DNA from: a virus
DNA length: 20,807 nt
Direction: 5' to 3' (one strand)
Virus record (IMG/VR): IMGVR_UViG_3300049218_000009
Span: 1-20,807 of that record
Both the position numbers and the translations under genes were made by a program. This document shows positions 2,414 to 17,112 of this stretch, one piece after another. Each line of letters begins with the position of its first letter. Position 1 is the stretch's first letter. Under the pieces are notes generated by a model. That model made no database searches and was not told the DNA's origin. It saw only the letters and a program-made list of their open reading frames with translations.

Positions 2414-3145
2414 CTAGCCTGTAGGCGTGGGCGGCGTGATGGCCGTCAGCGCTGATTGTTGAACGGCCGTAGTCGGCGTCTGCGGGTTGTTCAAACCCTG
2501 ATTGACGGGCGGCACGGCCGAGGGCTCGCTCGCGTCTGCGGTCGGCGTTACGGCCGTGCTGTATTGTGCGTCGACTTGATTGACCTGCACGAAATATAGT
2601 TCAACGTCGAAAAAGTACGCGTTGTCTTTGCCTCGGCGCGATAGCTCGGCCCGGGTCACGGTAACGTCTACGTAAGATTTTTCGGGCGTGCGAATCGTGT
2701 ATAAGTTGATATTCGACTGAGCCACGAGGGCATCTATTTGCGCAAGAAACACGGAACGCGCGACGAGGTCGCCGCCCTTGCTCAGCGTAACCGACGACTC
2801 GAACGGCAACCCGACGCGGTTGTATGTCGAGAATTGTCCGGCTTGCACGGGAAAATTCGGCACGCGATTTTCAGCACGCCAACCGAAATCCACTACGGAG
2901 TCAGGGACCACGACTTGATTGCCGTCAGAGTCAAACACGCCCCACACGGGTGCCGCCTGCGTGGCCTGCCATAATACATCCGGGTTAGCGGCGAACCCCA
3001 ACGTAGGCGGCGCGGACGCCTGTATGAGCAGCGAGCGCGCTAGTTGCGGAACGCCCGGCAGATTCGCCACGTTCGGGAATTGCGGAATCTCCACCGTGAT
3101 AGCGATTCCGAGCCCCGCGCCCCAACCTTGAGTTATGAGGCTCAT
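2414..3145 (-). CDS. Dit-like phage tail/baseplate protein
   Basis: The 243-residue product follows the tape measure gene with an ATGA overlap. The central core (ENRVPNFPVQAGQFSTYNRVGLPF, then SVTLSKGGD, FLAQIDALVAQSNINLYTIRTPEKSYVDVTVTRAELSRRG and a FFDVELYFVQV strand) is the characteristic Dit-like galectin-fold pattern of simple myophage baseplates. In these phages the protein forms the ring at the end of the tube to which the hub and wedge attach. The last 50 or so residues are Pro/Thr/Ala-rich and look disordered (TPTADASEPSAVPPVNQG and onwards); such tails occur in the family. A long N-terminal stretch with PNVANLPGVPQLARS carries the usual P-G-V-P motif. Confidence 0.78.
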   Translation of the reverse strand: MSLITQGWGAGLGIAITVEIPQFPNVANLPGVPQLARSLLIQASAPPTLGFAANPDVLWQATQAAPVWGVFDSDGNQVVVPDSVVDFGWRAENRVPNFPVQAGQFSTYNRVGLPFESSVTLSKGGDLVARSVFLAQIDALVAQSNINLYTIRTPEKSYVDVTVTRAELSRRGKDNAYFFDVELYFVQVNQVDAQYSTAVTPTADASEPSAVPPVNQGLNNPQTPTTAVQQSALTAITPPTPTG

Positions 3146-4701
3146 GACTGCCCCGTGTCAGCTTGTGACACTGAAAATTTACGTTGCAACGCGGATGGTA
3201 CCTGTTCGGCCACGGCGCGCGGGTCGGCGTTCGGTGCGTTGACCTGAATCGTTCCGACTGACACGGTTGTCGACGAGCCGCCGGGCGCCGCGGTATTCTT
3301 GGCTGCGCTCGTGGCGCCCGGCGTCGGGCCGTACTGCGCCCCCTCGTGGTGAATTATACCGCTGACAATTGCGTCATGGTCGGCCGCGCTCAAGTGATCG
3401 TTCGCGCCTTTGCCTACATCTTTCGACAGCGCGGCAATGTATGCGGGCACGTCGTTATGATCCCCGGCGGGCGCGTACACATTCACAATTTTTGCGATAG
3501 TATCGAGCCCGCGATTAAGTTTCGCCGTGATATCCGCGTCGAGTGCGGCCTTACCCTCGGCGGCACTTGCGAATACTCGAATACCCCGCGCGTCTACGGG
3601 TTGCCCGGCTTTGTATGGGCGTAGATTGCCCGGGTTATTGTTGCGGTACGCTATGCCGAGGTCGGGCCGTACAGCGGGCGTCGCGGCAGTCGGCGTGGCG
3701 CCGGATGTATCGGTCGCACCCGCGCCGAACGCTAGCCCCCTCGCCACGAGGCCCGTAAAATACCCTACGTATTTATCCCACGCTTTGAATACCGAGCTGC
3801 TATTGAGTAAGTCGAGAATTGCTTTCCAGCCGTTGAATATCGAACGCACCGTGTTACCTATTACGGTAACGGCCGACCCCACGGCTGTCAGGCCGCCGTT
3901 ATCTTTAAACGCGGCCATAAGATTTTGCACGGTCAGAAAAGCGTCTTTGATGTACGGCGTAAGGGTGAGCAATACTTTTTGCCCTGCGCCCTCGATTTGC
4001 AGTTGGATGTTCCGCCAATACTCTTGCAACTCTTGCGCTTTGCGTACGCTGTCCTCGTCGACGTTGTTATTCTGCTCGGCGAGCCGTAGCTGATCCGCTC
4101 GCAATTCTTTCGACTGCGCGAGATATTCGGCCTCACCCTGCGAGAGCCCGGCGGCCGTAAACATTGTAATCTGGTAGGCGCGGCCATACTGCGCAGTCTT
4201 GTCGGCCAACTCCTCAAAAATCTGACCTTGATTCCGTAACGCGCCGTTTTGGTCGCGGATGTTCACGCCGCGATTACGCAGCAACTCAAGCAGGGCCGAC
4301 GGCGGCCCCGCGCCCGTCGACATCGTTTGGAAATCTTTCGTTAGCTGCGAGAATGCGCCTTGCGCGTCAGCGGCACTGCCCCCCGCGAGAGTTACGGCGC
4401 TACCCCATTTGTTTAGCTCGTGGGCTGACATGCCGATATTGGCGGCCGTGCGCCCTAGCTGCGCCTCGCCCGCGTTGAGCCCGCCAAGCCATTTTGTCAG
4501 CCCCGAGGCTGACTCGAATCCGAGGAATAGCGAGGCAACGGTACGGCCGACCTCGGTCAATGATTTCGTGATGGCATCGGCGGACGCCTGCGCTTTGCGC
4601 GCAGTTTCGGCGGTTTCTTTCTCGGCTGTCTCGCGGCCTTTCTTGTAGTTTGAGGCGTCGAGGCCGAGCAGTACGACGAGCGAATCAATGACTGTAGCCA
4701 C
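3142..4701 (-). CDS. Tail tape measure protein with embedded lysozyme-like domain
   Basis: A GTG start at 4701 with AAGGAA upstream gives 519 residues. The first 330 residues are helical: an Ala/Glu/Lys-rich coiled coil (20-50), LNAGEAQLGRTAANIGMSA (75-93), typical of tape measures, and hydrophobic segments near 50-62 and 272-300. Residues 349-455 differ: YRNNNPGNLR (352-361), FASAAEGKAALDADI and a KIVNVYAPAGDHND...YIAALSKD segment, resembling the P5-like muramidase/transglycosylase domain used by virions to cut peptidoglycan. The last 50 residues (TVSVGTIQVNAPNADPRAVAEQ) are the usual tape-measure end. The protein sets tail length and is ejected during infection. It is short for a tape measure, and about 110 residues are the enzyme-like domain. 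It lies after the chaperone pair, as expected. Confidence 0.88.
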   Translation of the reverse strand: MATVIDSLVVLLGLDASNYKKGRETAEKETAETARKAQASADAITKSLTEVGRTVASLFLGFESASGLTKWLGGLNAGEAQLGRTAANIGMSAHELNKWGSAVTLAGGSAADAQGAFSQLTKDFQTMSTGAGPPSALLELLRNRGVNIRDQNGALRNQGQIFEELADKTAQYGRAYQITMFTAAGLSQGEAEYLAQSKELRADQLRLAEQNNNVDEDSVRKAQELQEYWRNIQLQIEGAGQKVLLTLTPYIKDAFLTVQNLMAAFKDNGGLTAVGSAVTVIGNTVRSIFNGWKAILDLLNSSSVFKAWDKYVGYFTGLVARGLAFGAGATDTSGATPTAATPAVRPDLGIAYRNNNPGNLRPYKAGQPVDARGIRVFASAAEGKAALDADITAKLNRGLDTIAKIVNVYAPAGDHNDVPAYIAALSKDVGKGANDHLSAADHDAIVSGIIHHEGAQYGPTPGATSAAKNTAAPGGSSTTVSVGTIQVNAPNADPRAVAEQVPSALQRKFSVSQADTGQS

Positions 4702-5831: not shown

Positions 5832-7580
5832 TTAGAGAATGTCGACCGAGGACATAGAGATTTTCTGCACCGATCCGCCGTCGGTATACCAGAAATTGAT
5901 CGTGGGCGAACCACGGCCGCCGCGGACAATCGCGCCCGGGTCGAGGATTTGCAGGTACCATCCGGTATTCTGAATCGTGGCCGTTGCGCCCGGGTCGCTG
6001 GTCGCTTGATTGAGTGCGGCCGACTGCGCGCCGCTCAACGTCACACCCGCGACGATGGAGCCGAAATACTTAGCTTGTTCAATCGGTCCGGTCGGCGGGC
6101 TGTTTTGCGTGGCTGCGTTGCCGACAAGCGCGTTACGAATCAGGTTATACCCGCGGGTCACGTACGGCACGGCGGGGACCGTCGTCAATAGATTCATTAG
6201 CGCTAGCTGAAATTGACTGTTGAGATAGACCTGATTCAGGAAGGTATCAAGGTACTTGAACGGCCCCGAGATTTGACCCGGTTGATTCAGCGTGAATTGC
6301 TGATTCGCGGTCGCATAGGCGCCGTAAAAATTGTACCCGTTCGATATGAGGTTGGCGGCGACCGTCGCGTCAGTGACTTGCGCGGCGAGCCCTGACTGAC
6401 CACGGAACGCAGCGGTTGTGCGGCCATTCTGCGCGTTGTAATTGATCGATGCGGCAATGGCCGTCTGAAACGCGGCGATTACACCCGAACCGCTTGTGTC
6501 GTACACGGGCATAACGCCCGTATCGTTGGCGGTGTTCACGATGGCGCCGAACGAGCCCGAGGCCGTCGGCGACTCGGTCGGGGTTGGGTCGGAATCCTGC
6601 GCGACGTATAGGAATCGATTCAATGCGGCGGGCGTTTGGCACCACGCGGCAAACGCCTCTTTATTGCTGAGCGACTGTTCGTTGACAGTCATGAACGTCG
6701 CCCAATTTTGAGTCTGTGAGACAACCGTCGCCATCATCCCCGCGGCGCCTTGAGACAATACAGAGCCCGTGGCGGCCGTCAGGTTGAGCCCGTTGGCGAG
6801 CGAGCCCGCAGTCGCGAAACTCACGGTAGAGGTCGCCCCCGTGGTCGACGAAGAAATCACGAACGCGTCGCGGAGCACGTCATAAGTGCAAGTCGCGGTA
6901 CCGGCGACCGTGGCCGTTCCGCTTGCAACGGTGCCCGACGTGCTCACGTTGACGGTGCCCGTTCCCGCGAGAACGGTATAAGTGCCGAATGACGTGATAG
7001 TGCTGGAAGGCTCAACGCCCGTGCCGTTAAGCACGTCGCCAACCGTGAGAAAACCCGAGGCCGTCGCGGAAATCGTGACCACGCCCGCGGCCTGCGAGGC
7101 GGTACCCGAGAACACCGAACCCGGCGATTGCAATCCGGCTTGAATTAGGGTTGCGGCATTCGTGAACGACGTTGCGCCCGATAGGTTGATAGACGGGGTC
7201 GCAATGACCACGCCGTCAACAGTGACGGTAAGTGTTCCCGACAGCGCGGTAAGCTGCGCGAGGCTCAACGCCGCGACACTGCCGCCGCGCAGATAGGCGC
7301 CGATTGCGGCCGTATTGTACTGCGCGAAATACAACGTACCCGGCAATACGGTGCAATTGATGAAACCGGCGAAGTACACGTTCGCGAGAATCGTTTCAGC
7401 GGCGTCCGGGCCGAACCAATCCAACACGTCGGTCGCGCTCGCGAATGCCTGCACGGCGCCATAAGGAATTGAGGTATCGGGAGTCAGGTAGACAGAATTG
7501 AGAGAGAGCGGATTGCCCCCCGCGGAAAGCACGCCCGGTATGACATTTGCAAGGGCCGAGGCTGGAATTGATGCGGTCAT
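5832..7580 (-). CDS. Tail sheath protein (DUF3383 family) with an inserted beta domain
   Basis: The 582-residue protein is a DUF3383 sheath: N-terminal IPASALANVIPGVLSAGG, a PYGAVQAFASATDVLDWFG segment, FAAWCQTPAALNRFLYVAQDSD near the middle, and a C-terminal NTGWYLQILDP...GRGSPTINFWYTDGGSVQKI motif. The subunits would stack around the tube and drive contraction. Residues about 157-230 look foreign. They are Gly/Thr/Ser-rich (VVTISATASGFLTVGDVLNG...GTYTVLAGTGTVNVSTSGTV) and separate the helix ending LIQAGL from CTYDVLRDAFVISSSTTGA, which would normally be near each other in this family. Similar segments occur in the adaptor and cement proteins. The start ATG 7580 has TAGGAAA upstream, and its leader resembles those of the cement and capsid genes. 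Confidence 0.88.
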   Translation of the reverse strand: MTASIPASALANVIPGVLSAGGNPLSLNSVYLTPDTSIPYGAVQAFASATDVLDWFGPDAAETILANVYFAGFINCTVLPGTLYFAQYNTAAIGAYLRGGSVAALSLAQLTALSGTLTVTVDGVVIATPSINLSGATSFTNAATLIQAGLQSPGSVFSGTASQAAGVVTISATASGFLTVGDVLNGTGVEPSSTITSFGTYTVLAGTGTVNVSTSGTVASGTATVAGTATCTYDVLRDAFVISSSTTGATSTVSFATAGSLANGLNLTAATGSVLSQGAAGMMATVVSQTQNWATFMTVNEQSLSNKEAFAAWCQTPAALNRFLYVAQDSDPTPTESPTASGSFGAIVNTANDTGVMPVYDTSGSGVIAAFQTAIAASINYNAQNGRTTAAFRGQSGLAAQVTDATVAANLISNGYNFYGAYATANQQFTLNQPGQISGPFKYLDTFLNQVYLNSQFQLALMNLLTTVPAVPYVTRGYNLIRNALVGNAATQNSPPTGPIEQAKYFGSIVAGVTLSGAQSAALNQATSDPGATATIQNTGWYLQILDPGAIVRGGRGSPTINFWYTDGGSVQKISMSSVDIL

Positions 7581-7640
7581 GTGTTATTTCCTAGACGTGC
7601 GTCACGGACGGAATTCGGTTATGGTCAATGATTTGAGAGT

Positions 7641-8198
7641 TTAGGATATCGGCAACATAATGTCTACCGGACCGAGCGTGACGGCGTATTCCTGCGCCGT
7701 CGTGACGACCGGGTTATATTGCAACCGTGCCGTGACTATCCATCGGTCCTCGTATTCAAGTTCGGCATTCGTGAGCGGGGCGCGTATCGGGTCGTCCGCG
7801 TATAGCGGCTGGCACACGGGCGCGAGCGCGATACAGCCGACCTCGTCACGTAGCAACGTCGTCAGTATGTCGGACCATTCCGACGAATTCGGGCCGTATA
7901 CGTCGATTTGCACGTCAAGCTGTTGCCCCTGCTCAGCCGTTACGGGGCCGGGCGCGGGCGGCGCGCCCGTCGTGGCTGAGTACGTGTCGACGTTCGTCCG
8001 TAGACGTTTCTTCGTCATTTCAGTCATGACCACAAACCCGGCGGGATACCCCGTGGGCGGCGCGGTTGGGGGCATGGGTACGCGGTTGGGGTACCCTCGG
8101 GTAGCTTGCCCGGGGCCGAGCCCGAGTTGAGCCACGATGAAATTACCGAGCGCGGTAATGACTTGCGAGACTGTCGGCGATACGGTAGCGGCTGTCAT
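7641..8198 (-). CDS. Neck/tail terminator-like protein (LIC_12616 type)
   Basis: ATG 8198 overlaps the previous stop as ATGA and gives 185 residues; longer extension lies inside that gene. The protein has an N-terminal helix (QVITALGNFIVAQLGL), a Pro-rich PNRVPMPPTAPPTG turn, FVVMTEMTKKRLRTNVDTYS, QQLDVQIDVYGPNSSEWSDILTTLLRDEV and a final RWIVTARLQYNPVVTT. This matches the phage neck terminator family that caps the tail tube before head joining. It sits between the connector proteins and the sheath, the normal place. The helix-strand pattern L-D-V-Q-I-D-V-Y-G-P is the family hallmark seen here. Confidence 0.75.
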   Translation of the reverse strand: MTAATVSPTVSQVITALGNFIVAQLGLGPGQATRGYPNRVPMPPTAPPTGYPAGFVVMTEMTKKRLRTNVDTYSATTGAPPAPGPVTAEQGQQLDVQIDVYGPNSSEWSDILTTLLRDEVGCIALAPVCQPLYADDPIRAPLTNAELEYEDRWIVTARLQYNPVVTTAQEYAVTLGPVDIMLPIS

Positions 8199-8599
8199 GG
8201 TGCATCCGTTTGCAAAACGCAAATAACTTTCGTCCACCCGCCTTGTTCGACGTTCCAGGGGCCGTCGACATAAACGATTTTCCAATTTTGCACGGCCTGC
8301 CCTTGGAACGGCGCGAACTGTAGGAGGTCGCCGCCTTGCGCAAGTACCCGTATGACCCCTTGCGCGTTGCCGAACAGATAGACCGTGCGAAACACGCCTT
8401 GCAAGTTCAACCGCTCGACGTGTTTTAGCTCGTCACGCCCGAGGGGCTGAATCTGCACGCGGACCTGCACGCCCGGAGCATAGCCTGGCGTCTGCGAGAA
8501 GTCAGCGTTCACCGTGTTGCCGGTCGACGCGAAATATAGCGCCGTGCGGTCAGGATTAACCGAATTGATAGCCCCCCGCACGATGCCATGCAGATTCAT
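8195..8599 (-). CDS. Head-tail connector-region protein of uncertain role
   Basis: The 134-residue product overlaps the genes on either side by ATGA-type junctions. It starts MNLHGIVRGAINSVNP and shows VQIQPLGRDELKHVERLNLQGVFRTVYLFG, then GVIRVLAQGGDLLQF and GGWTKVICVLQ. This sentence (LHGxVxGAIxxVNP, Q-x-L-x-x-D-E-L, x-L-N-x-Q-G-V, GGD, W-x-K-V) is common to small proteins in the connector cluster of related myophages, usually left without a name. By position it could be a head-closure or tail-completion protein. The family pattern is recognised; the exact role is not. Confidence 0.6.
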   Translation of the reverse strand: MNLHGIVRGAINSVNPDRTALYFASTGNTVNADFSQTPGYAPGVQVRVQIQPLGRDELKHVERLNLQGVFRTVYLFGNAQGVIRVLAQGGDLLQFAPFQGQAVQNWKIVYVDGPWNVEQGGWTKVICVLQTDAP

Positions 8600-9084
8600 G
8601 ATTTCACAACCTCATAATCGACCGCGCGTTGCATGACGCCCGTGTCAACTAAGCCTTTATTGAACCCTTTGGCCGCCTCGGTCGATTTCGCGTTGTCTGC
8701 GGGCCATTGCGCAATCTCGCTTTCGATATCGTCACGCACTGACTGCCCGAGCAGACGTAGCGCGGCCTCGCCGTTGTACCCCGTGGCTATGACGGCTTTG
8801 CCTAGCTTTTCGCCCCACATCGGCGATTCTCGTTTGATCGTGTTACGAAAAAACGGGCGCGACGGCGAGCGTGACGTGCCAAATTCGTTCCAAAACGCCA
8901 CGGTGGCGACGTTGAGCGGTTGCGCGTTGTTCGCTTTTGATCGTTTCGACGGAGGCTTGGCGGGGTATTTGGCATTCTCAAGAAACCCCACGCGCAGCAC
9001 GCCGCCGCTCGTTATTTTCTTCTCAAGCGCGCCGAGCGCGAGCGATAGCTTTTTACCGCCAATGACCTTATTGACCGTAGCCAT
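8596..9084 (-). CDS. HK97 gp10-like tail completion/neck protein
   Basis: Translation from ATG 9084 gives 162 residues. An ATG at 9090 is also possible, but GTGGA is better spaced from 9084. The gene overlaps the adaptor 3' end by about 17 bases. Near residue 60-90 it has VATVAFWNEFGTSRSPSRPFFRNTI, the E-F-G-T-xxx-P-x-R-P-F-x-R signature of the HK97 gp10-like/minor tail protein family. In that family the protein connects the neck to the tail. An amphipathic region before it (LALGALEKKITSGGVLRVGFLE) and the C-terminal helix with DIESEIAQW agree. The last residues (GLVDTGVMQRAVDYEVVK) are also typical. Confidence 0.75.
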   Translation of the reverse strand: MATVNKVIGGKKLSLALGALEKKITSGGVLRVGFLENAKYPAKPPSKRSKANNAQPLNVATVAFWNEFGTSRSPSRPFFRNTIKRESPMWGEKLGKAVIATGYNGEAALRLLGQSVRDDIESEIAQWPADNAKSTEAAKGFNKGLVDTGVMQRAVDYEVVKS

Positions 9085-9829
9085 TGTCATTCCACGGGGC
9101 GCCGAGCCCCGGTATTGGGTTGTACGCACTGGCGGGCGCGGGTATAAACATTGCGGTACGGTAGCGGCTCGTCATTGCCCAATACTGCGCGCCGTATTTT
9201 GTTTGCACGAAATACGCTTGATTCGCGTTCGGCGGCGCGCTCCATTCACTTGCTACCGATACGTCGCCCTCGCTAGCGTTATTGATCCGCCCCACGATGC
9301 CGAGTGGCGGCGAGATGTTCGGCACGCCCGGAACTATGAACGATTCAGATGCGACCGTTTGCGATAAGTTGAGGTTGTACGTCCCGACGCCGCCGGTACC
9401 CGTGCCGAGGCTGCCAATCACAGTGCCCGGGGTTATCAGACTGCCGCCGACGCTCGGGCCGTCATACAGCGATTGTCCGACCGCGAGCGCGCCCGCGTTG
9501 ACGGCCGACACGGTGAGCACAGGGCCAGCGACCGAGCCCACGCCCGAGAATACCGGCGAGCCTATACCCGCGTCGTTCGTGCCTTGGAAAATCGTTGCTA
9601 TGTGCGCCGTGAGCAAGTACAGCAGATACAATCGCTGATTAGCATCCGGCACGCGCGAACAACACGTATTGTTGAGCAGGAACGTGGCACCTACAAAATC
9701 GTTCGCAAGTGACGCGGGGCTTGCGTTATTGATGCCCGTGAATTCCGGGTACGACGCCAAAAACTCGGCGGCCGAAAACTCGACTATGCCGTAGGTCGGC
9801 TGGACAGTCACACACGGATTCACGGGCAT
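9068..9829 (-). CDS. Head-tail adaptor (DUF4054 family) with an inserted beta domain
   Basis: ATG 9829 with GAGAAGG upstream gives 253 residues, about twice the usual 120-150 of the family. The two halves of a DUF4054 adaptor are clear. Residues 14-80 are GIVEFSAAEFLASYPEF...LANDFVGATFLLNNTCCSRV...LLYLLTAHIATI, and 177-230 are GIVGRINNASEGDVSVASEW...AYFVQTKYGAQYWAMTSRYRTAMFIP. Between them lie residues 95-165, a Gly/Ser/Thr-rich beta segment (PVLTVSAVNAGALAVGQSLYDG...GTGTGGVGTYNLNLSQTVAS) that the family does not need. The adaptor forms a ring under the portal. Related segments occur in the sheath and cement proteins in this window. Confidence 0.82.
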   Translation of the reverse strand: MPVNPCVTVQPTYGIVEFSAAEFLASYPEFTGINNASPASLANDFVGATFLLNNTCCSRVPDANQRLYLLYLLTAHIATIFQGTNDAGIGSPVFSGVGSVAGPVLTVSAVNAGALAVGQSLYDGPSVGGSLITPGTVIGSLGTGTGGVGTYNLNLSQTVASESFIVPGVPNISPPLGIVGRINNASEGDVSVASEWSAPPNANQAYFVQTKYGAQYWAMTSRYRTAMFIPAPASAYNPIPGLGAPWNDNGYGQ

Positions 9830-9833
9830 GGTC

Positions 9834-10259
9834 TTACGCCTTCTCGGTTGCGAAATCCGCCTTCGTGATGCCCGGCGGGGTTTTCTTGGGGTCAATCGGC
9901 GCGAACGGCGCGGGCGTGTCGTCGCCCTCGGCTACGCGCAACGCTGCGCTCGCCTCGTCTTTCGCCTCGAACAAAATCTCATTTTTGAGCAACCACGAGC
10001 CCGCGTGCGTGCGCTTCCATTCGTCCCAAGCGGCCTTATCAATCCCGCGGTTAAGGAATGGGCGCATGCTCATACCGGCGGGAAGCTGCAATCCGGTCTT
10101 GCGCGCCTCGGCCGTGTGGGCATGCCAGCCGCGGAGCGCAATCTTTTTGTAGTTCGGGCCTTGCTTGACAATGCTCGTTTTCTCGTCAACCGAATACCCG
10201 ACCTCTAAGATAATGCCCGAGGGTAGCTTGCACCCGATAATTACCGTTTCGTTCGCCAT
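9834..10259 (-). CDS. Phage structural-operon protein of unknown function
   Basis: ATG 10259 with GGAGAG upstream gives 141 residues; the longer open frame to 10406 reads into the cement-like gene and is not used. The first 90 residues, IIGCKLPSGIILEVGYSVDEKTSIVKQGPNYKKIALRGWHAHT, form a strand-rich domain followed by LPAGMSMRPFLNRGIDKAAWDEWKRTHAGSWLLKNEILFEAKDEASA. The C-terminus is Pro/Lys-rich (PFAPIDPKKTPPGITKADF). Proteins of this type occur between capsid and adaptor genes in related phages. No catalytic motif is seen. A minor head protein or assembly factor is the likeliest use, but this is only from position. Confidence 0.6.
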   Translation of the reverse strand: MANETVIIGCKLPSGIILEVGYSVDEKTSIVKQGPNYKKIALRGWHAHTAEARKTGLQLPAGMSMRPFLNRGIDKAAWDEWKRTHAGSWLLKNEILFEAKDEASAALRVAEGDDTPAPFAPIDPKKTPPGITKADFATEKA

Positions 10260-10272
10260 GTCTATCTCTCCG

Positions 10273-10851
10273 TTATGGTGTGAAAAATGCAGATGTAGAA
10301 ACTCTCGCCAATTGCCCGGGCGGCCCGATGGAACACACAAGCCACGGTGTAGGCTCGGCATTGTCGGTTGGCCCGGAGACGGCCGAGCCGTCAACCAATG
10401 AAGCATATACGGTGTTGCCTGGGATTGCGCCCCCGGCGAACCGTAACCAAAAATTACCGCGCCCGTGCAAAGTCACGGCGAGCCCGGGCCGTACGCGCAA
10501 CACGGGCGGCGATACCGAGTAGTCGATAAATTCCCACGTAGACGATGCTTGCGGGCCTGCAAGGCTGCGCGGGCCGCCCACTACGCCGCCGTTCGTGGGA
10601 TTGATTGAACGGTAAGGGATCACGATACCGAGACGGTCGGGTGCCGCGAGACGCGTATTATTGACGACGCCCGATTGACTCAGCCAACCGAATCGACCTT
10701 GTATTGTGCCGGGCTTGTTCGATACGGCCGCGCCTGCGCCCGCGAGCACCGATGCGAACGGCGCGCGTATCTCAAGGTTCGTTTGTAGGGGGGTTGATGC
10801 AAAGGCGCCCTCGTAAGCCCCGACGGAGCCTAAGAGGGCGCTAGTAGTCAC
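10273..10851 (-). CDS. Second cement-like head protein (paralogue of the upstream cement protein)
   Basis: No good ATG exists. GTG 10851, 18 bases after the capsid stop, gives 192 residues; it lacks a clear Shine-Dalgarno, and TTG starts inside the capsid gene are possible. The core repeats the pattern of the cement protein at 11931-12848: APFASVLAGAGAAV, QGRFGWLSQSGVVNN, LGIVIPYR, then GLAVTLHGRGNFWLRFAGGAIPGNTVYASLVDGSAVSG. The cement protein has NPFASVLAGPG, GNFAWFGPAGQV, LGFVGRN and GDFWAKFEGGATPGQTVYADKTNGS at the same spacing. So it is a Gp24-like structural cement relative, without the beta insertion. It may bind different capsid positions or be a minor decoration. Confidence 0.68.
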   Translation of the reverse strand: MTTSALLGSVGAYEGAFASTPLQTNLEIRAPFASVLAGAGAAVSNKPGTIQGRFGWLSQSGVVNNTRLAAPDRLGIVIPYRSINPTNGGVVGGPRSLAGPQASSTWEFIDYSVSPPVLRVRPGLAVTLHGRGNFWLRFAGGAIPGNTVYASLVDGSAVSGPTDNAEPTPWLVCSIGPPGQLARVSTSAFFTP

Positions 10852-10868
10852 GTTGAGTACGGCGCGGG

Positions 10869-11903
10869 TTAGGCGCCGACCATCGCAGCGATTGCAAACG
10901 GGGCGTATATGATCGTACCCCAAGTACCTTGAGACTTTTTCTGCTCCCAAGACGAGGTCTTGGTAACAATCGCATGGGCGCGCATCTTTTCGGTGAATGC
11001 CGCCTCGCAGGTCTTTTGCCCCTCGATATTCTCGGCAATCAACTGCACGAATTCGGTGCCGCCCGCGCCGCCGCCGCCGTTCAATGCAAACTCGGGAACC
11101 GTGACAATTTTCAGGTTCGGGAAGTTCGTCTTGATCTGCGTGTAAACGTTGACGTTGTACTGATTCGTATTGTTGAAATTGACGGCATTGCCCGGGCTGA
11201 TACCCATTGTCATGGACGTTTCAGCGTCAATCAACCCGTTACCTTGCAAAATCAACTGTTGCACGAGGCGCAACACGTCGGCGTAAATCGCCGCGCCCGT
11301 GCCGCCGAACCACGACGCCGTCACGGCAATCGGGGCGGGCAATGAGGGGTCATTCGTGCCGCCGTAGTTTTGCAAACCGGCCACACCATAGAGGTATGTC
11401 GCGTTTTGGAATTTCTTCAACGTGAGCGCTGACGCCATGTTGACCTGATTCGCCTTGTCAATCTTCGCCTCGGCGGCCCGCGCAAGCTCACGCTCACCCC
11501 AACGAGTGTTTGTCTGGTAGTGGTAACTCTGACGCTGCGGGAACTGCTCGTTGCTGTTCGACATTCCGTCCTGGCTGAAATCGCCGTACGAGGCAGTCTC
11601 GCCGGTACGTTCTGCCATCAGGAACATTGCGGTATCGGAAACCCACGTGCCTTTCTTCGTCTCGCCGTAAAGCTCGGCCGCCTTCGTGGGGCTCACGAGA
11701 ACTTCGATAATCGCCGGGTCAACGTAGGTCGTGAACAGCGACGGGATGCCCGCATTGGCCGCGGTAATCAGCGTAGGCTGCGCGTCGTACCCTACCGACT
11801 TGTCGATAAGGGACATTCCGCGGGCCTCTTGCATAAGGCCGGTCATGAAATGGATACCGTATCGGCGTCCGAGGTCGGCGTGATCGATTGCAATGCGGGT
11901 CAT
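10869..11903 (-). CDS. Major capsid protein (DUF2184 family, HK97 fold)
   Basis: The 344-residue protein matches the DUF2184 major capsid family in length and pattern. It has PTLITAANAGIPSLFTTYVDPAIIEVL (43-70), a WVSDTAMFLMAERTGETASYGDFSQDG segment, then NTRWGERELARAAEAKIDKANQVNMAS, FQNATYLYGVAGLQNYGGTNDPSLP, NVYTQIKTNFPNLKIVTVPEF and the end SQGTWGTIIYAPFAIAAMVG. It would assemble into the icosahedral shell after protease processing of the prohead. The leader TAAGTTTC...ACAGGACAAGCACACATG resembles that of the upstream cement gene. The neighbours are cement proteins on both sides. The start ATG 11903 is clear. Confidence 0.93.
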   Translation of the reverse strand: MTRIAIDHADLGRRYGIHFMTGLMQEARGMSLIDKSVGYDAQPTLITAANAGIPSLFTTYVDPAIIEVLVSPTKAAELYGETKKGTWVSDTAMFLMAERTGETASYGDFSQDGMSNSNEQFPQRQSYHYQTNTRWGERELARAAEAKIDKANQVNMASALTLKKFQNATYLYGVAGLQNYGGTNDPSLPAPIAVTASWFGGTGAAIYADVLRLVQQLILQGNGLIDAETSMTMGISPGNAVNFNNTNQYNVNVYTQIKTNFPNLKIVTVPEFALNGGGGAGGTEFVQLIAENIEGQKTCEAAFTEKMRAHAIVTKTSSWEQKKSQGTWGTIIYAPFAIAAMVGA

Positions 11904-11930
11904 GTGTGCTTGTCCTGTTTTCGTCGAAAC

Positions 11931-12848
11931 TTAGTACGTGGTGATCTTGGCGACTTCGCCATTGCCCGCGGTGTACGTGCCGCCGACAACAAACGCAGTC
12001 GCTACGGCGCCCGCGGTTGTGATCGTTCCTGATGCAATCGCAGCCTGCGCGGGCGTGATATTGTAAATACCGGCGCCGCCTGCGGTGCCCGTGACCTGTA
12101 CGCCCAATTCGGTATTTGCGGCGAGCAGTGCCGAGACGAGCGTATCGCCCGGGACGAGCGTACCCGTACCGACGGCCGAGAATGTCGCGAAGCTGGAAAA
12201 GGTCGACTGTCCGTTAGTGAACGCTGCGACGGTTGCCGCCGGGTCGCTCACGCTGTAGGTGCCTGCGCCGCCGGTCGTGCCGGTCAGCTGCGCCACAATC
12301 TTGAGACCAGCTTCGACGCCCGTTGCAGTGAACGTGTCGCCGGGCATCACGGAGCCGTTCGTAGCGGCGCCCGTAATGGTCAGCACGCCCGCAGTAATCG
12401 AACCGGCGACCGTCGCATTAGTGCCGACGAGGCCGGTTGCCGACGCAGCGGCGGGGGTCGAGGCCGCGGCAATCGGCGAGCCGTTCGTTTTGTCGGCGTA
12501 CACGGTCTGACCCGGGGTTGCGCCGCCCTCGAACTTCGCCCAAAAGTCGCCCGCGGCGAACGCGGTGACCATGAAACCGGGCGGAATCAACAGCGTTGTT
12601 TCGCCCAAAAATTGGGTAATCAAAGCCTGTTCGTTGCGGCCGACGAACCCGAGTTGATACCCGGCCACGTACGACTGCGAAACCTGACCCGCGGGGCCGA
12701 ACCACGCGAAGTTACCGACGACTATGCCGGTAGCGGGCGCCACATACTCACCGGGACCGGCAAGCACTGACGCGAACGGGTTAGTGCTTGCGAAATCACC
12801 GGCAACCCCAGGGGCTTGCAGGTTGTTGACTTTGTTCTGAAAGGGCAT
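11931..12848 (-). CDS. Structural cement protein (Gp24-like) with two inserted beta repeats
   Basis: ATG 12848, with AGGAC ten bases upstream, gives 305 residues. Residues 1-130 follow the phage cement pattern: NKVNNLQAPGVAGDFASTNPFASVLAGPGEYV, VGNFAWF, LGFVGRNEQALITQFLGE and GFMVTAFAAGDFWAKFEGGATPGQTVYADKTNGSPI. Such proteins lie on capsomers and stabilise the shell. Residues about 140-280 are two Gly/Thr-rich beta repeats (VLTITGAATNGSVMPGD...GTTGGAGTYSV, then FSAVGTGTLVPGD...GTAGGAGIYNI), and the C-terminus GAVATAFVVGG...EVAKITTY looks like the family's ending. The repeats would project outward and may decorate the head. The start leader is shared with the capsid gene. Confidence 0.83.
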   Translation of the reverse strand: MPFQNKVNNLQAPGVAGDFASTNPFASVLAGPGEYVAPATGIVVGNFAWFGPAGQVSQSYVAGYQLGFVGRNEQALITQFLGETTLLIPPGFMVTAFAAGDFWAKFEGGATPGQTVYADKTNGSPIAAASTPAAASATGLVGTNATVAGSITAGVLTITGAATNGSVMPGDTFTATGVEAGLKIVAQLTGTTGGAGTYSVSDPAATVAAFTNGQSTFSSFATFSAVGTGTLVPGDTLVSALLAANTELGVQVTGTAGGAGIYNITPAQAAIASGTITTAGAVATAFVVGGTYTAGNGEVAKITTY

Positions 12849-13592: not shown

Positions 13593-13620
13593 GTTATGGT
13601 AATCGTCGGGGTAATGTCAA
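13593..13620 (-). promoter_or_regulatory. Promoter-like site TTGACA-16-CATAAC at the HNH 3' end
   Basis: On the minus strand TTGACA lies at 13620-13615 and CATAAC at 13598-13593, a 16-base spacer. It lies in the last codons of the HNH gene and points at the scaffold gene 47 bases further on. The -35 is perfect; the -10 has four of six consensus bases. Confidence 0.35.
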
Positions 13621-14160
13621 CACTCCGTCAGCCACGAGCACGTCGGGCTTTAGGAGATACGCGACCGCGCGTAAGACTCCGGGCAGATTGTCGCCTAATT
13701 TTCCTACGGCAGTGTTGCAGTCGAAGCAAAGCCAACCGCGAAAAGCCCCGGCCTCGTGGCAATGGTCTAATGCTATAGCCCTATTGCCTGGCAGTTTACG
13801 GCAGCATTCACAGTGGCCCGGCATGGGGCGTGTAGGGGCGGGCAGGCCGCTAAGTCTGCGGCGAAGCGCTTTTGTGCTTTCTAAACGGCTGTATGCTTTT
13901 TGTCTAGCTGCTATCTTGGCTCGATTGGCGGCCGAGTACTCTTTCATTTTTCGTAAATTAACGTCTCGGTTGGCTGTGTGCCGGGCCCGAGCTTTCGCTA
14001 AATATTTCTCTCGGTTAGGGCCTGTAAGTCGGCGCCTATCCCGCTCTCGATATTTTTCTGGGTTTTGCTGCCGGTATTTACGTACGTTATCCGCCGCGCA
14101 TCGTCTGCATGCACCGTATTTATTGAATTGCCCAGTATGGCCGTTTTTACAGGTTTCCAC
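13594..14160 (-). CDS. HNH endonuclease (recombination endonuclease VII-like), free-standing homing type
   Basis: GTG 14160 gives 188 residues, overlapping the protease stop by 14 bases. The N-terminus is a zinc-ribbon (C4, H8, C18, C21). A highly basic middle with repeated R-K/Y/N units follows (NPEKYRERDRRR, NREKYLAKARARH, ANRAKIAARQKAYS). Residues 116-170 are the His-Me finger core: HCECC (116-120), LDHCH (131-135) and GWLCFDCNTAVGKLGDN (143-159), matching endonuclease VII-type HNH enzymes, which cut DNA using one metal held by the H-N-H site and four zinc ligands. Such genes in phage structural operons are mobile. The last residues, DVLVADGVLTL, echo the protease end. No intron features were looked for beyond inspection. 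Confidence 0.85.
   Translation of the reverse strand: METCKNGHTGQFNKYGACRRCAADNVRKYRQQNPEKYRERDRRRLTGPNREKYLAKARARHTANRDVNLRKMKEYSAANRAKIAARQKAYSRLESTKALRRRLSGLPAPTRPMPGHCECCRKLPGNRAIALDHCHEAGAFRGWLCFDCNTAVGKLGDNLPGVLRAVAYLLKPDVLVADGVLTLPRRLP
13612..13644 (-). repeat. Direct repeat copy 2: codes DVLVADGVLTL (HNH 3' end)
   Basis: These 33 bases encode DVLVADGVLTL and match, at eight or nine of eleven residues, DVCVADSVLTL at 14186-14218. Base identity is partial, since many third positions differ, so it is an old or converged copy. The two copies lie 574 bases apart, on either side of the HNH gene. Confidence 0.6.
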
Positions 14161-15700: not shown

Positions 15701-16042
15701 TTACTGCCCGGCGGGGGGTCGGCTCGAAGTTTCGGCACGGTCGGCCTCAATAGAAACTTGAAGGGCGGCCAGTATACGCCACGCTGCTTTAGCTAGATGC
15801 CGCGTTTGGCCGCCGTCGTCAAACACTTGGCCCGCTTCGTGGTCGAGGCAATGACGCATGACCTTATTCAAATGGTCGGTTGATACGTCGCGCGCAAAAT
15901 GCAGCTTTGCGCCGAGCCCGTGTTGGGCGTTGCCAAGTACCGAGACTTTCGCAATCTCAGCCCACGCGTCGGGGAAATACGCTATGCAGCCATCCCACAC
16001 GGGCAACGCGTTGCGCGCGTCGCGGTCGGTCGGTAGAGTCAT
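15701..16042 (-). CDS. DUF5664-like protein (dATP/dGTP diphosphohydrolase N-terminal family)
   Basis: ATG 16042 overlaps the phosphoesterase stop as ATGA and gives 113 residues. The sequence TLPTDRDARNALPVWDGCIAYFPDAWAEIAKVSVLGNAQHGLGAKLHFARD, then DHLNKVMRHCLDHEAGQVFDDGGQTRHLAKAAWRILAALQ, has the form of a phage all-helical family described as dATP/dGTP diphosphohydrolase N-terminal domain: a Y-F-P-D-A motif, a GN-x-QH motif, a H-L-x-x-H/DH motif and an H-x-A-K-x-A-W-R helix. Relatives are MazG-like nucleotide hydrolases or their partners. Family is well supported by eye; activity in this short version is not. It may act in dNTP control. Confidence 0.68.
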   Translation of the reverse strand: MTLPTDRDARNALPVWDGCIAYFPDAWAEIAKVSVLGNAQHGLGAKLHFARDVSTDHLNKVMRHCLDHEAGQVFDDGGQTRHLAKAAWRILAALQVSIEADRAETSSRPPAGQ

Positions 16043-17112
16043 TTTCCTGGCACCGATACCCACGGGATGGATTTCGCGCGCTTAGCTGCAACGTCGCACC
16101 ATACGGCATTGTCCCAACACAACCCGTTGTCTGGGTGCGTAACCCAAAAGTTTTGGCTCGCGGGCTCGAATCCAAAATTGTTCGTATGGGCGTATTCGTC
16201 ATATCCTTTGAGTGACCCATTACCGCGAAGCCGGGCTGTCAGCATGCGCTTATGGAAATGCCCGAATTCCATCACGTCATAGTCTTGTCCGACGGCCGCA
16301 TTACGCGTGTTTTTCTTTTGCTCGCCACGCGTGACGGGCCCGAGCGGGCCGATGATTCCATCGCCACCGCGAAATTGATCCCCGTGAGTAAGGAGGTACC
16401 GCGTACCATAAATCCGGTACAGGGCGTCACTACCGTCGGGAATATAGAACGTAACACGCTTGTCAGACTCAAAATGCGACGCGAGAAATTGGTACAACAG
16501 CCAACCAAATGACGTATGGTTGCGATCTTTGCTCCAAGTCTTTTTCGTATCCCGGTCATGGTTGCCCGAGACGCACGGCAGAAACACATGCCCGAACGTG
16601 TCGGCCATAAGCGTGATTGTCGCCACGAGGTTACGGTAAATATCCATGAGCGTGGGCATCGTATTCAATTCGTTTGTAGCTGCTAGCTCGTCGTGAATAT
16701 TACCGCTAATAATGTCGCCGCCGAGCGGGATCACGATACCCGGATAGCTCATGCTCGGGTCGATAATCCTGCAAAGAAATATCGTCGACTCAATTACTTG
16801 ACGCAACCGGCGGCGCGCTATGGCGAGATTGAACGAATTCACTCCACCGATTTGCGACGAGCGCACTGACTCGCCCCAATGCAAGTCGGACAGCATGACT
16901 TTAGGCACGCCCGGGGCCTTGGCTTTCTTAGGCTCGTAAACCCACGAGGGTGCCTGCAATTCGTTGACGGCCAGCTTAGCCGTGCCGATGTATTCACGCA
17001 ACGCCTCGGCCGTGTCCGACTCAGTACGGGCCTCGTCTAGCTGTTTGCGCAAATCCGCTATGATCGTAGCGGGGTCGTGAAGTGATTTGAATTCTTTGGC
17101 TGTCTTGGGCAT
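16039..17112 (-). CDS. Calcineurin-like metallophosphoesterase
   Basis: The 357-residue protein has all blocks of the calcineurin-like fold: SDLHWGE (75-81, D76 and H78), a G-G-D motif at 131-133 (PLGGDIISG), SGNHDRD (182-188), LTHGDQF (241-247) and a FGHFHKR block (283-289). These bind two metal ions. Upstream of the domain is an N-terminal 70-residue helical part that starts KTAKEFKSLHDPATII. ATG 17112 is preceded by GAGG, two bases after the stop of the previous gene. Enzymes of this type hydrolyse DNA, RNA, nucleotides or proteins; the substrate cannot be told. Its location in a head gene operon, next to a nucleotide-hydrolase-like protein, suggests nucleotide or DNA metabolism or defence evasion. 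Confidence 0.85.
   Translation of the reverse strand: MPKTAKEFKSLHDPATIIADLRKQLDEARTESDTAEALREYIGTAKLAVNELQAPSWVYEPKKAKAPGVPKVMLSDLHWGESVRSSQIGGVNSFNLAIARRRLRQVIESTIFLCRIIDPSMSYPGIVIPLGGDIISGNIHDELAATNELNTMPTLMDIYRNLVATITLMADTFGHVFLPCVSGNHDRDTKKTWSKDRNHTSFGWLLYQFLASHFESDKRVTFYIPDGSDALYRIYGTRYLLTHGDQFRGGDGIIGPLGPVTRGEQKKNTRNAAVGQDYDVMEFGHFHKRMLTARLRGNGSLKGYDEYAHTNNFGFEPASQNFWVTHPDNGLCWDNAVWCDVAAKRAKSIPWVSVPGK

Follow-up and report, generated by a model that had tools for sequence, protein, structure and literature searches.

A single module of about 65–75 residues (the consensus comprises 64 protein letters) is present four times in three virion proteins encoded by the window, which is the whole 20.8-kb virus record analysed here (IMGVR_UViG_3300049218_000009, 20,807 nt; its minus strand carries a cluster of myophage structural genes), and we consider it almost certain that this is a mobile module inserted into its host proteins. 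The explanation that we favour as a whole, in which this promiscuous module serves as surface decoration of the virion, is probable but clearly less secure than the mobility itself.

Module copies and their host genes

The earlier note on this DNA, made from the sequence alone, had placed one shared segment in the tail sheath, in the DUF4054 adaptor and, as two tandem copies, in the cement protein, and all of these proteins and positions are borne out (Table 1). With a wide profile, exactly four places were found in the whole record, one in the sheath, one in the adaptor and two in the cement protein. The sheath is matched by PF11863 over its full length, and its model superimposes on the sheaths of E217 and Pa193 over 443–452 residues, the chains of both of these (493–504 residues) corresponding approximately to the window sheath minus the module. 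The cement protein scores 52.3 and 79 bits against PF22758 and PF23982, respectively (cut-off 27), and its model matches the cement proteins of E217, Pa193, XM1 and Pam3 with Z 11.9–12.5. In the case of the adaptor, PF13262 scores 29.9 bits (cut-off 23.9) in two stretches flanking the module; the gene likely starts at the ATG at 9829, from which the module covers residues 93–168 (about 115–190 if the TTG start of the ORF is taken instead).

Table 1. Positions of the host genes and the module copies in the window.
Feature	Position	Strand	Basis
Tail sheath (DUF3383), 582 aa	5832..7580	-	PF11863 E 3.4e-104; phrog_205; E217/Pa193 sheath Z 31–33
Module copy, tail sheath residues 157–230	6891..7112	-	profile core 6909–7103; model strands 157–225
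Tail terminator/gateway homologue, without module	7641..8285	-	relatives in L028, L029, L040 and L044 carry the module
DUF4054/phrog_302 head-tail adaptor	9068..9895	-	PF13262 E 6.8e-7; phrog_302 E 8.9e-18
Module copy, DUF4054 adaptor	9326..9556	-	profile core 9338–9538
Structural cement protein, 305 aa (XM1 gp53/E217 gp24/Pam3 gp6 kind)	11931..12848	-	PF23982 E 4.4e-22, PF22758 E 8.7e-14
Cement module copy 1, residues ~138–211	12216..12437	-	model residues 143–217 match EF-Tu/eEF1A domain II
Cement module copy 2, residues ~214–282, tandem to copy 1	12003..12209	-	profile and cement model

Three further genes on the minus strand drew attention by eye. The gene at 13594–14160, inside the structural cluster, bears an HNH/endonuclease VII-like pattern (CRRC...HCECC...DHCH...CFDCN), from which it is perhaps a homing endonuclease; only 6 relatives of it were found in the 80 related loci described below. 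The tape-measure protein (3142–4701) contains a segment (IAYRNNNPGNLRPY...) that resembles a cell-wall-degrading (transglycosylase-type) domain, and the gene at 16039–17112, among the packaging and head genes, looks metallophosphatase-like (GGDIISG, GNHD, THGDQ and GHFH).

Homology and predicted fold of the copies

Homology of the segments across the three proteins, as claimed earlier, is confirmed by both pairwise alignment and one-family profiles. The sheath/adaptor pair gave a score of 115 (43.6±7.5 for shuffled segments) and cement copies 1 and 2 gave 105 (46.9±7.5 for shuffled segments), with 0 of 2,000 shuffles as high in either case. The remaining pairs are weaker taken singly, 2 to 90 of 2,000 shuffles being as high, and the upper figure belongs to the weak pair of the adaptor copy and cement copy 1. 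The profiles were run on every ORF encoded in the window or in one of 80 related IMG/VR contigs (loci are numbered L below). In this set the profile of the four segments matches 86 ORFs at E ≤ 1e-3, the profile matches range from 86 to 92 ORFs, and shuffled or reversed versions of the same ORFs yield no match at all. Moreover, when profiles were built for one family only, from the copies of relatives and with the window excluded, the sheath profile recovered the window adaptor (1.2e-13) and both cement copies (3.5e-11 and 3.4e-5), and the cement profile recovered the adaptor (1.4e-12) and the sheath (5.7e-6). When the few copies of adaptors or terminators served as the basis of a profile, the adaptor copy was the only one recovered in the window, whereas sheath and cement copies were recovered in other genomes.

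The sheath and cement proteins were modelled with AlphaFold2 using alignments of the window and related-locus proteins (mean pLDDT 85 and pTM 0.80 for the sheath, 78.9 and 0.60 for the cement protein). In the models, the same six strands follow in the same order in the sheath module (157–164, 167–176, 183–185, 193–198, 208–212 and 218–225) and in cement copy 1 (146–152, 155–158, 172–174, 182–190, 196–200 and 207–215). The idea of one common fold is thus upheld by the models for three of the four window copies, namely that of the sheath and both of the cement protein, the adaptor copy lying outside the modelling. A chance likeness among Gly/Thr/Ser-rich stretches, in favour of which one could cite the low complexity of the segments and the weakness of some single pairs such as adaptor/cement copy 1, is ruled out by the zero matches among shuffled or reversed ORFs and by the shared predicted strands.

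A second look at the hits of Foldseek itself showed that the module alone resembles domain II of eEF1A, EF-Tu, EFSec, IF2 and aIF2-gamma with Z 6–7, and in many entries the rmsd is mostly 2.5–2.8 over about 72 (70–73) of ~75 residues. As modelled, the module is a six-strand EF-Tu domain II-like barrel, in the sense of fold only, and the Z of 6–7 may reflect a merely common arrangement; the GTP_EFTU_D2 profile matches weakly (E 0.061) in 1 of 52 modules. A stretch of the Mystique tail tube is similarly close (Z 6.4). Foldseek alone returned no PDB match for the cement model at E 0.001 or better, and its matches in BFVD, led by Indivirus collagen-repeat and uncultured phage proteins, have poor global rmsd and are a hint only. 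Among solved capsid entries, chain 1 of 8eci from Arthrobacter phage Bridgette is like the module (Z 6.1, rmsd 2.3 over 67 residues, 24% identity), but it is a free-standing chain of 124 aa with no significant profile relation, and no PDB sequence matches the module profile up to E 10.

Empty sites in related proteins

In the sheath alignment, the window reads ...TLIQAGLQ, module, CTYDVLRDAFV, whereas L030 reads ...SFSNAATIIAAGFT directly followed by GGPNVTYDTLRQAFV...; such a clean gap is found in many relatives, L034 and L045 among them. Likewise, L013, with a sheath 71% identical to that of the window, has an adaptor that passes from LTAHVAAILQGTND straight into GAGNITPPLGIVGRI without the module, and L038, L019 and L211 have the same empty site. 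In L034, L211 and L213 the cement protein without the module runs directly into its last strands. It had been read from the letters that the segment splits parts that normally sit together, LTAHIATI and GIVGRINNASEG in the adaptor and LIQAGL and CTYDV in the sheath, and these halves are indeed joined directly in module-free relatives; relatives lacking the segment, named there as the support to be sought, exist in all three protein families. Furthermore, no copy was found in Helicobacter prophage BK070131, Pseudomonas phage Orisa01, Xanthomonas phage PhiXhv-7 and Acetobacter phage phiAO1, four isolated or prophage relatives with similar gene order that were compared over one stretch each. Since clean empty sites occur in many relatives, the module is an insertion, and its being an ancestral part of each family is ruled out; ancestry and chance likeness taken together keep next to no probability.

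Distribution among virion proteins of related loci

Occurrences were counted in the 80 related contigs and the window. The module is carried by 34 of 82 sheaths (1–3 copies each), 24 of 28 cement proteins (1–4 copies, mostly 2–3), 13 of 64 adaptors, 4 of 77 tail terminators and 12 of 38 baseplate-J-like proteins. In the last family it sits at four sites of the alignment (columns 211, 318, 370 and 510–516), so that repeated insertion is needed. In addition, a second cement-like family contains it in L029, L030, L040, L052 and L073. The occurrence of the module is therefore wider than the earlier note had it, as it extends to the tail terminator, baseplate J, a second cement family and, as described below, many unrelated phages. 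Immediately following the capsid gene, the window also encodes a second cement-family protein (10273–10950, minus strand; phrog_2122 E 1.2e-13), and 0 of 20 relatives of this protein contain the module.

No module was detected in 74 tubes, 67 tape measures, 43 hubs and 52 capsid proteins of the same loci, the last of these being an outer protein nonetheless. The sheath, cement, adaptor and terminator together have it in 75 of 250 sequences, compared with 0 of 233 for tube, tape measure, hub and capsid protein (Fisher p 8e-25, a guide only, because the sequences are related and the split was picked after the data were seen).

Gain, loss and exchange

Domain shuffling among structural genes had been proposed, and it is supported by the empty sites, by presence and absence gene by gene, by the four baseplate-J sites and by groups of mixed host proteins in the module tree. 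A tree of the sheath calculated without the module requires at least 7 changes of presence, 5 of which are forced by well-supported branches. The genes of one locus also differ, since L013 has the module in the sheath and lacks it in the adaptor, and L026 has it in the adaptor and baseplate J and lacks it in the sheath. In the module tree, which is based on 70 columns and in which about half of the forks are unresolved, the sheath and baseplate-J copies of the clade of the window are grouped (SH-aLRT 96), and one cement copy groups with sheath copies of another clade (SH-aLRT 96). Moreover, cement copies 1 and 3 of L028 pair with sheath copies 1 and 3 of L031 (88 and 88), and the tandem arrays themselves (L028:2904-4046 and L031:7995-10118, respectively) are in register, copy 1 to copy 1 and copy 3 to copy 3. 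This copy-to-copy pairing suggests that tandem arrays move between genes as blocks.

Within the clade of the window, orthologous copies are 67% identical, as against 36% between different proteins of one genome. Between genomes, sheath copies average 46–74% identity. Recent copying at the DNA level was not seen, the shared exact words having a mean of 10.1 nt within a genome versus 9.2 nt between genomes. Because the copies track the host gene and no recent copying is visible, the shuffling must be old in this clade.

Occurrence in other phages and comparison with known systems

For the wider searches the consensus sequence of the module was used as the query, and it detected at least 478 loci in viral contigs among the first 600 candidates, as well as 45 loci in bacterial genomes. 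Where a family could be named among 82 diverse carriers, it was tail terminator, SU10 adaptor, sheath, cement, baseplate J or DUF2612, and also a capsid protein, lambda-D-like decoration, T7 fibre N-terminus and P22-type stabilisation protein, and a few bacterial families, e.g. SusD. A Bacteroidota protein of 2296 aa (L105:2913-9800) has five tandem copies. Sequence searches of Pfam and NCBIfam gave no family for the module, and a tblastn search of phages with only the module as query gave no match, most probably owing to masking by the low-complexity filter. PHROG 21413 and PHROG 38233, the latter named tail fiber protein, each include it as one segment, and 16 of 20 modules match both; both families, however, are long and multi-domain and do not define the module as a unit, and an annotation as 'tail fiber' derived from this segment alone is unreliable.

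The kind of phenomenon is already known, since phage proteins share fragments (PMC10684548) and Ig-like domains are promiscuous in phages. Like the latter (Fraser et al. 2006, as cited in PMC9230969), the module is a small beta domain of unrelated structural proteins that is exchanged horizontally and is dispensable in relatives. It appears to differ from them in its predicted fold, the best structural matches of which are six-strand EF-Tu domain II-like barrels rather than Ig sandwiches, and it differs in occupying several sites within one lineage, in proteins of the head, neck, sheath and baseplate. The weak family matches of 72 module sequences include none to Ig-like domains, although a kinship with these may exist even so. 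It also recalls the additional sheath domains (Evseev et al. 2022, PMC9230969) and the InD of XM1 (PMC10457771), which are inserted and lie away from the tube, but it is located inside a middle insertion region already present in relatives and is common to cement, adaptor and baseplate proteins too. By sequence and fold, the window cement belongs to the family of E217 gp24, Pam3 gp6 and XM1 gp53, and unlike these it contains two tandem modules ahead of the last strand; close cement relatives without the module have about 165–170 aa. As far as our literature search reached, which covered few subscription papers, no description of the module was found. To that extent, what appears new is the definition of the module as a unit, its predicted barrel fold and its occurrence, within a single lineage, in proteins of the head, neck, sheath and baseplate for which natural empty sites exist.

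Possible role of the module

The module is rich in Gly, Thr, Ser, Ala and Val and poor in charge, with 3% K/R/D/E compared with 9–14% for the remainder of the carrier proteins; the module has the lower share in 290 of 290. In our reading, several virion proteins of this myophage lineage have received a beta-barrel module of about 70 residues in permissive surface loops and have retained it; old recombination between module-bearing genes and phages would have spread it, and it would stand on the outside of the head, neck, sheath and baseplate. Such a surface position is very likely. Trimers of E217 gp24 and XM1 gp53 are located at the three-fold axes on the capsid surface (for XM1, PMC10457771), and additional sheath domains are positioned away from the tube (PMC9230969); by these positions, the copies in cement and sheath are expected to point outward. 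Decoration along head, neck and tail, as the earlier note had suggested, would also fit the occurrence in outer proteins only.

As for what the module does there, it may make weak, multivalent contact with glycans or particles of the host surface or the environment, with stabilisation of the particle coming second. Adhesion is a tentative assignment, quite possible but short of probable, and is made by analogy with phage Ig-like domains, for which weak contact with carbohydrates was proposed (Fraser et al. 2006, as cited in PMC9230969). A broader notion is speculative and rather unlikely, namely that a mobile module, passing among genes for head, neck, tail and baseplate in many phages, would serve as an interchangeable tile on the surface of most outer virion parts and give the whole particle a common uncharged, sticky or anti-fouling coat.

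Alternatively, the modules could be primarily stabilisers that touch neighbouring subunits in cement trimers, sheath rings and the neck and so reinforce the particle, proteins with 2–4 copies thickening the capsid surface. The cement protein is the commonest carrier and mostly has more than one copy, XM1 gp53 reinforces capsomer junctions and forms its trimer through the C-terminal part (PMC10457771), and extra sheath domains have been proposed as tail stabilisers (PMC9230969). Specific contacts of this kind are hard to reconcile with the frequent clean absence, the unrelated hosts and sites and the varying copy number, and we regard this role as unlikely. A neutral or selfish spread, by which a foldable low-charge insert is tolerated in surface loops with little or no benefit, accords with the many hosts and sites, the repeated gain or loss and the large number of viral loci; its probability is nevertheless low, as the module is in frame, keeps a conserved core across deep divergence, as seen in the identities of the sheath copies, and is restricted to outer proteins.

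The module is common in uncultured phages, yet neither Pfam nor NCBIfam has an entry for it, and sequence searches found no solved relative. Its occurrences point to permissive insertion sites in five structural proteins, i.e. sheath, cement, adaptor, terminator and baseplate, and the natural empty sites within one lineage make the role of accessory surface domains for the virion testable by deletion.
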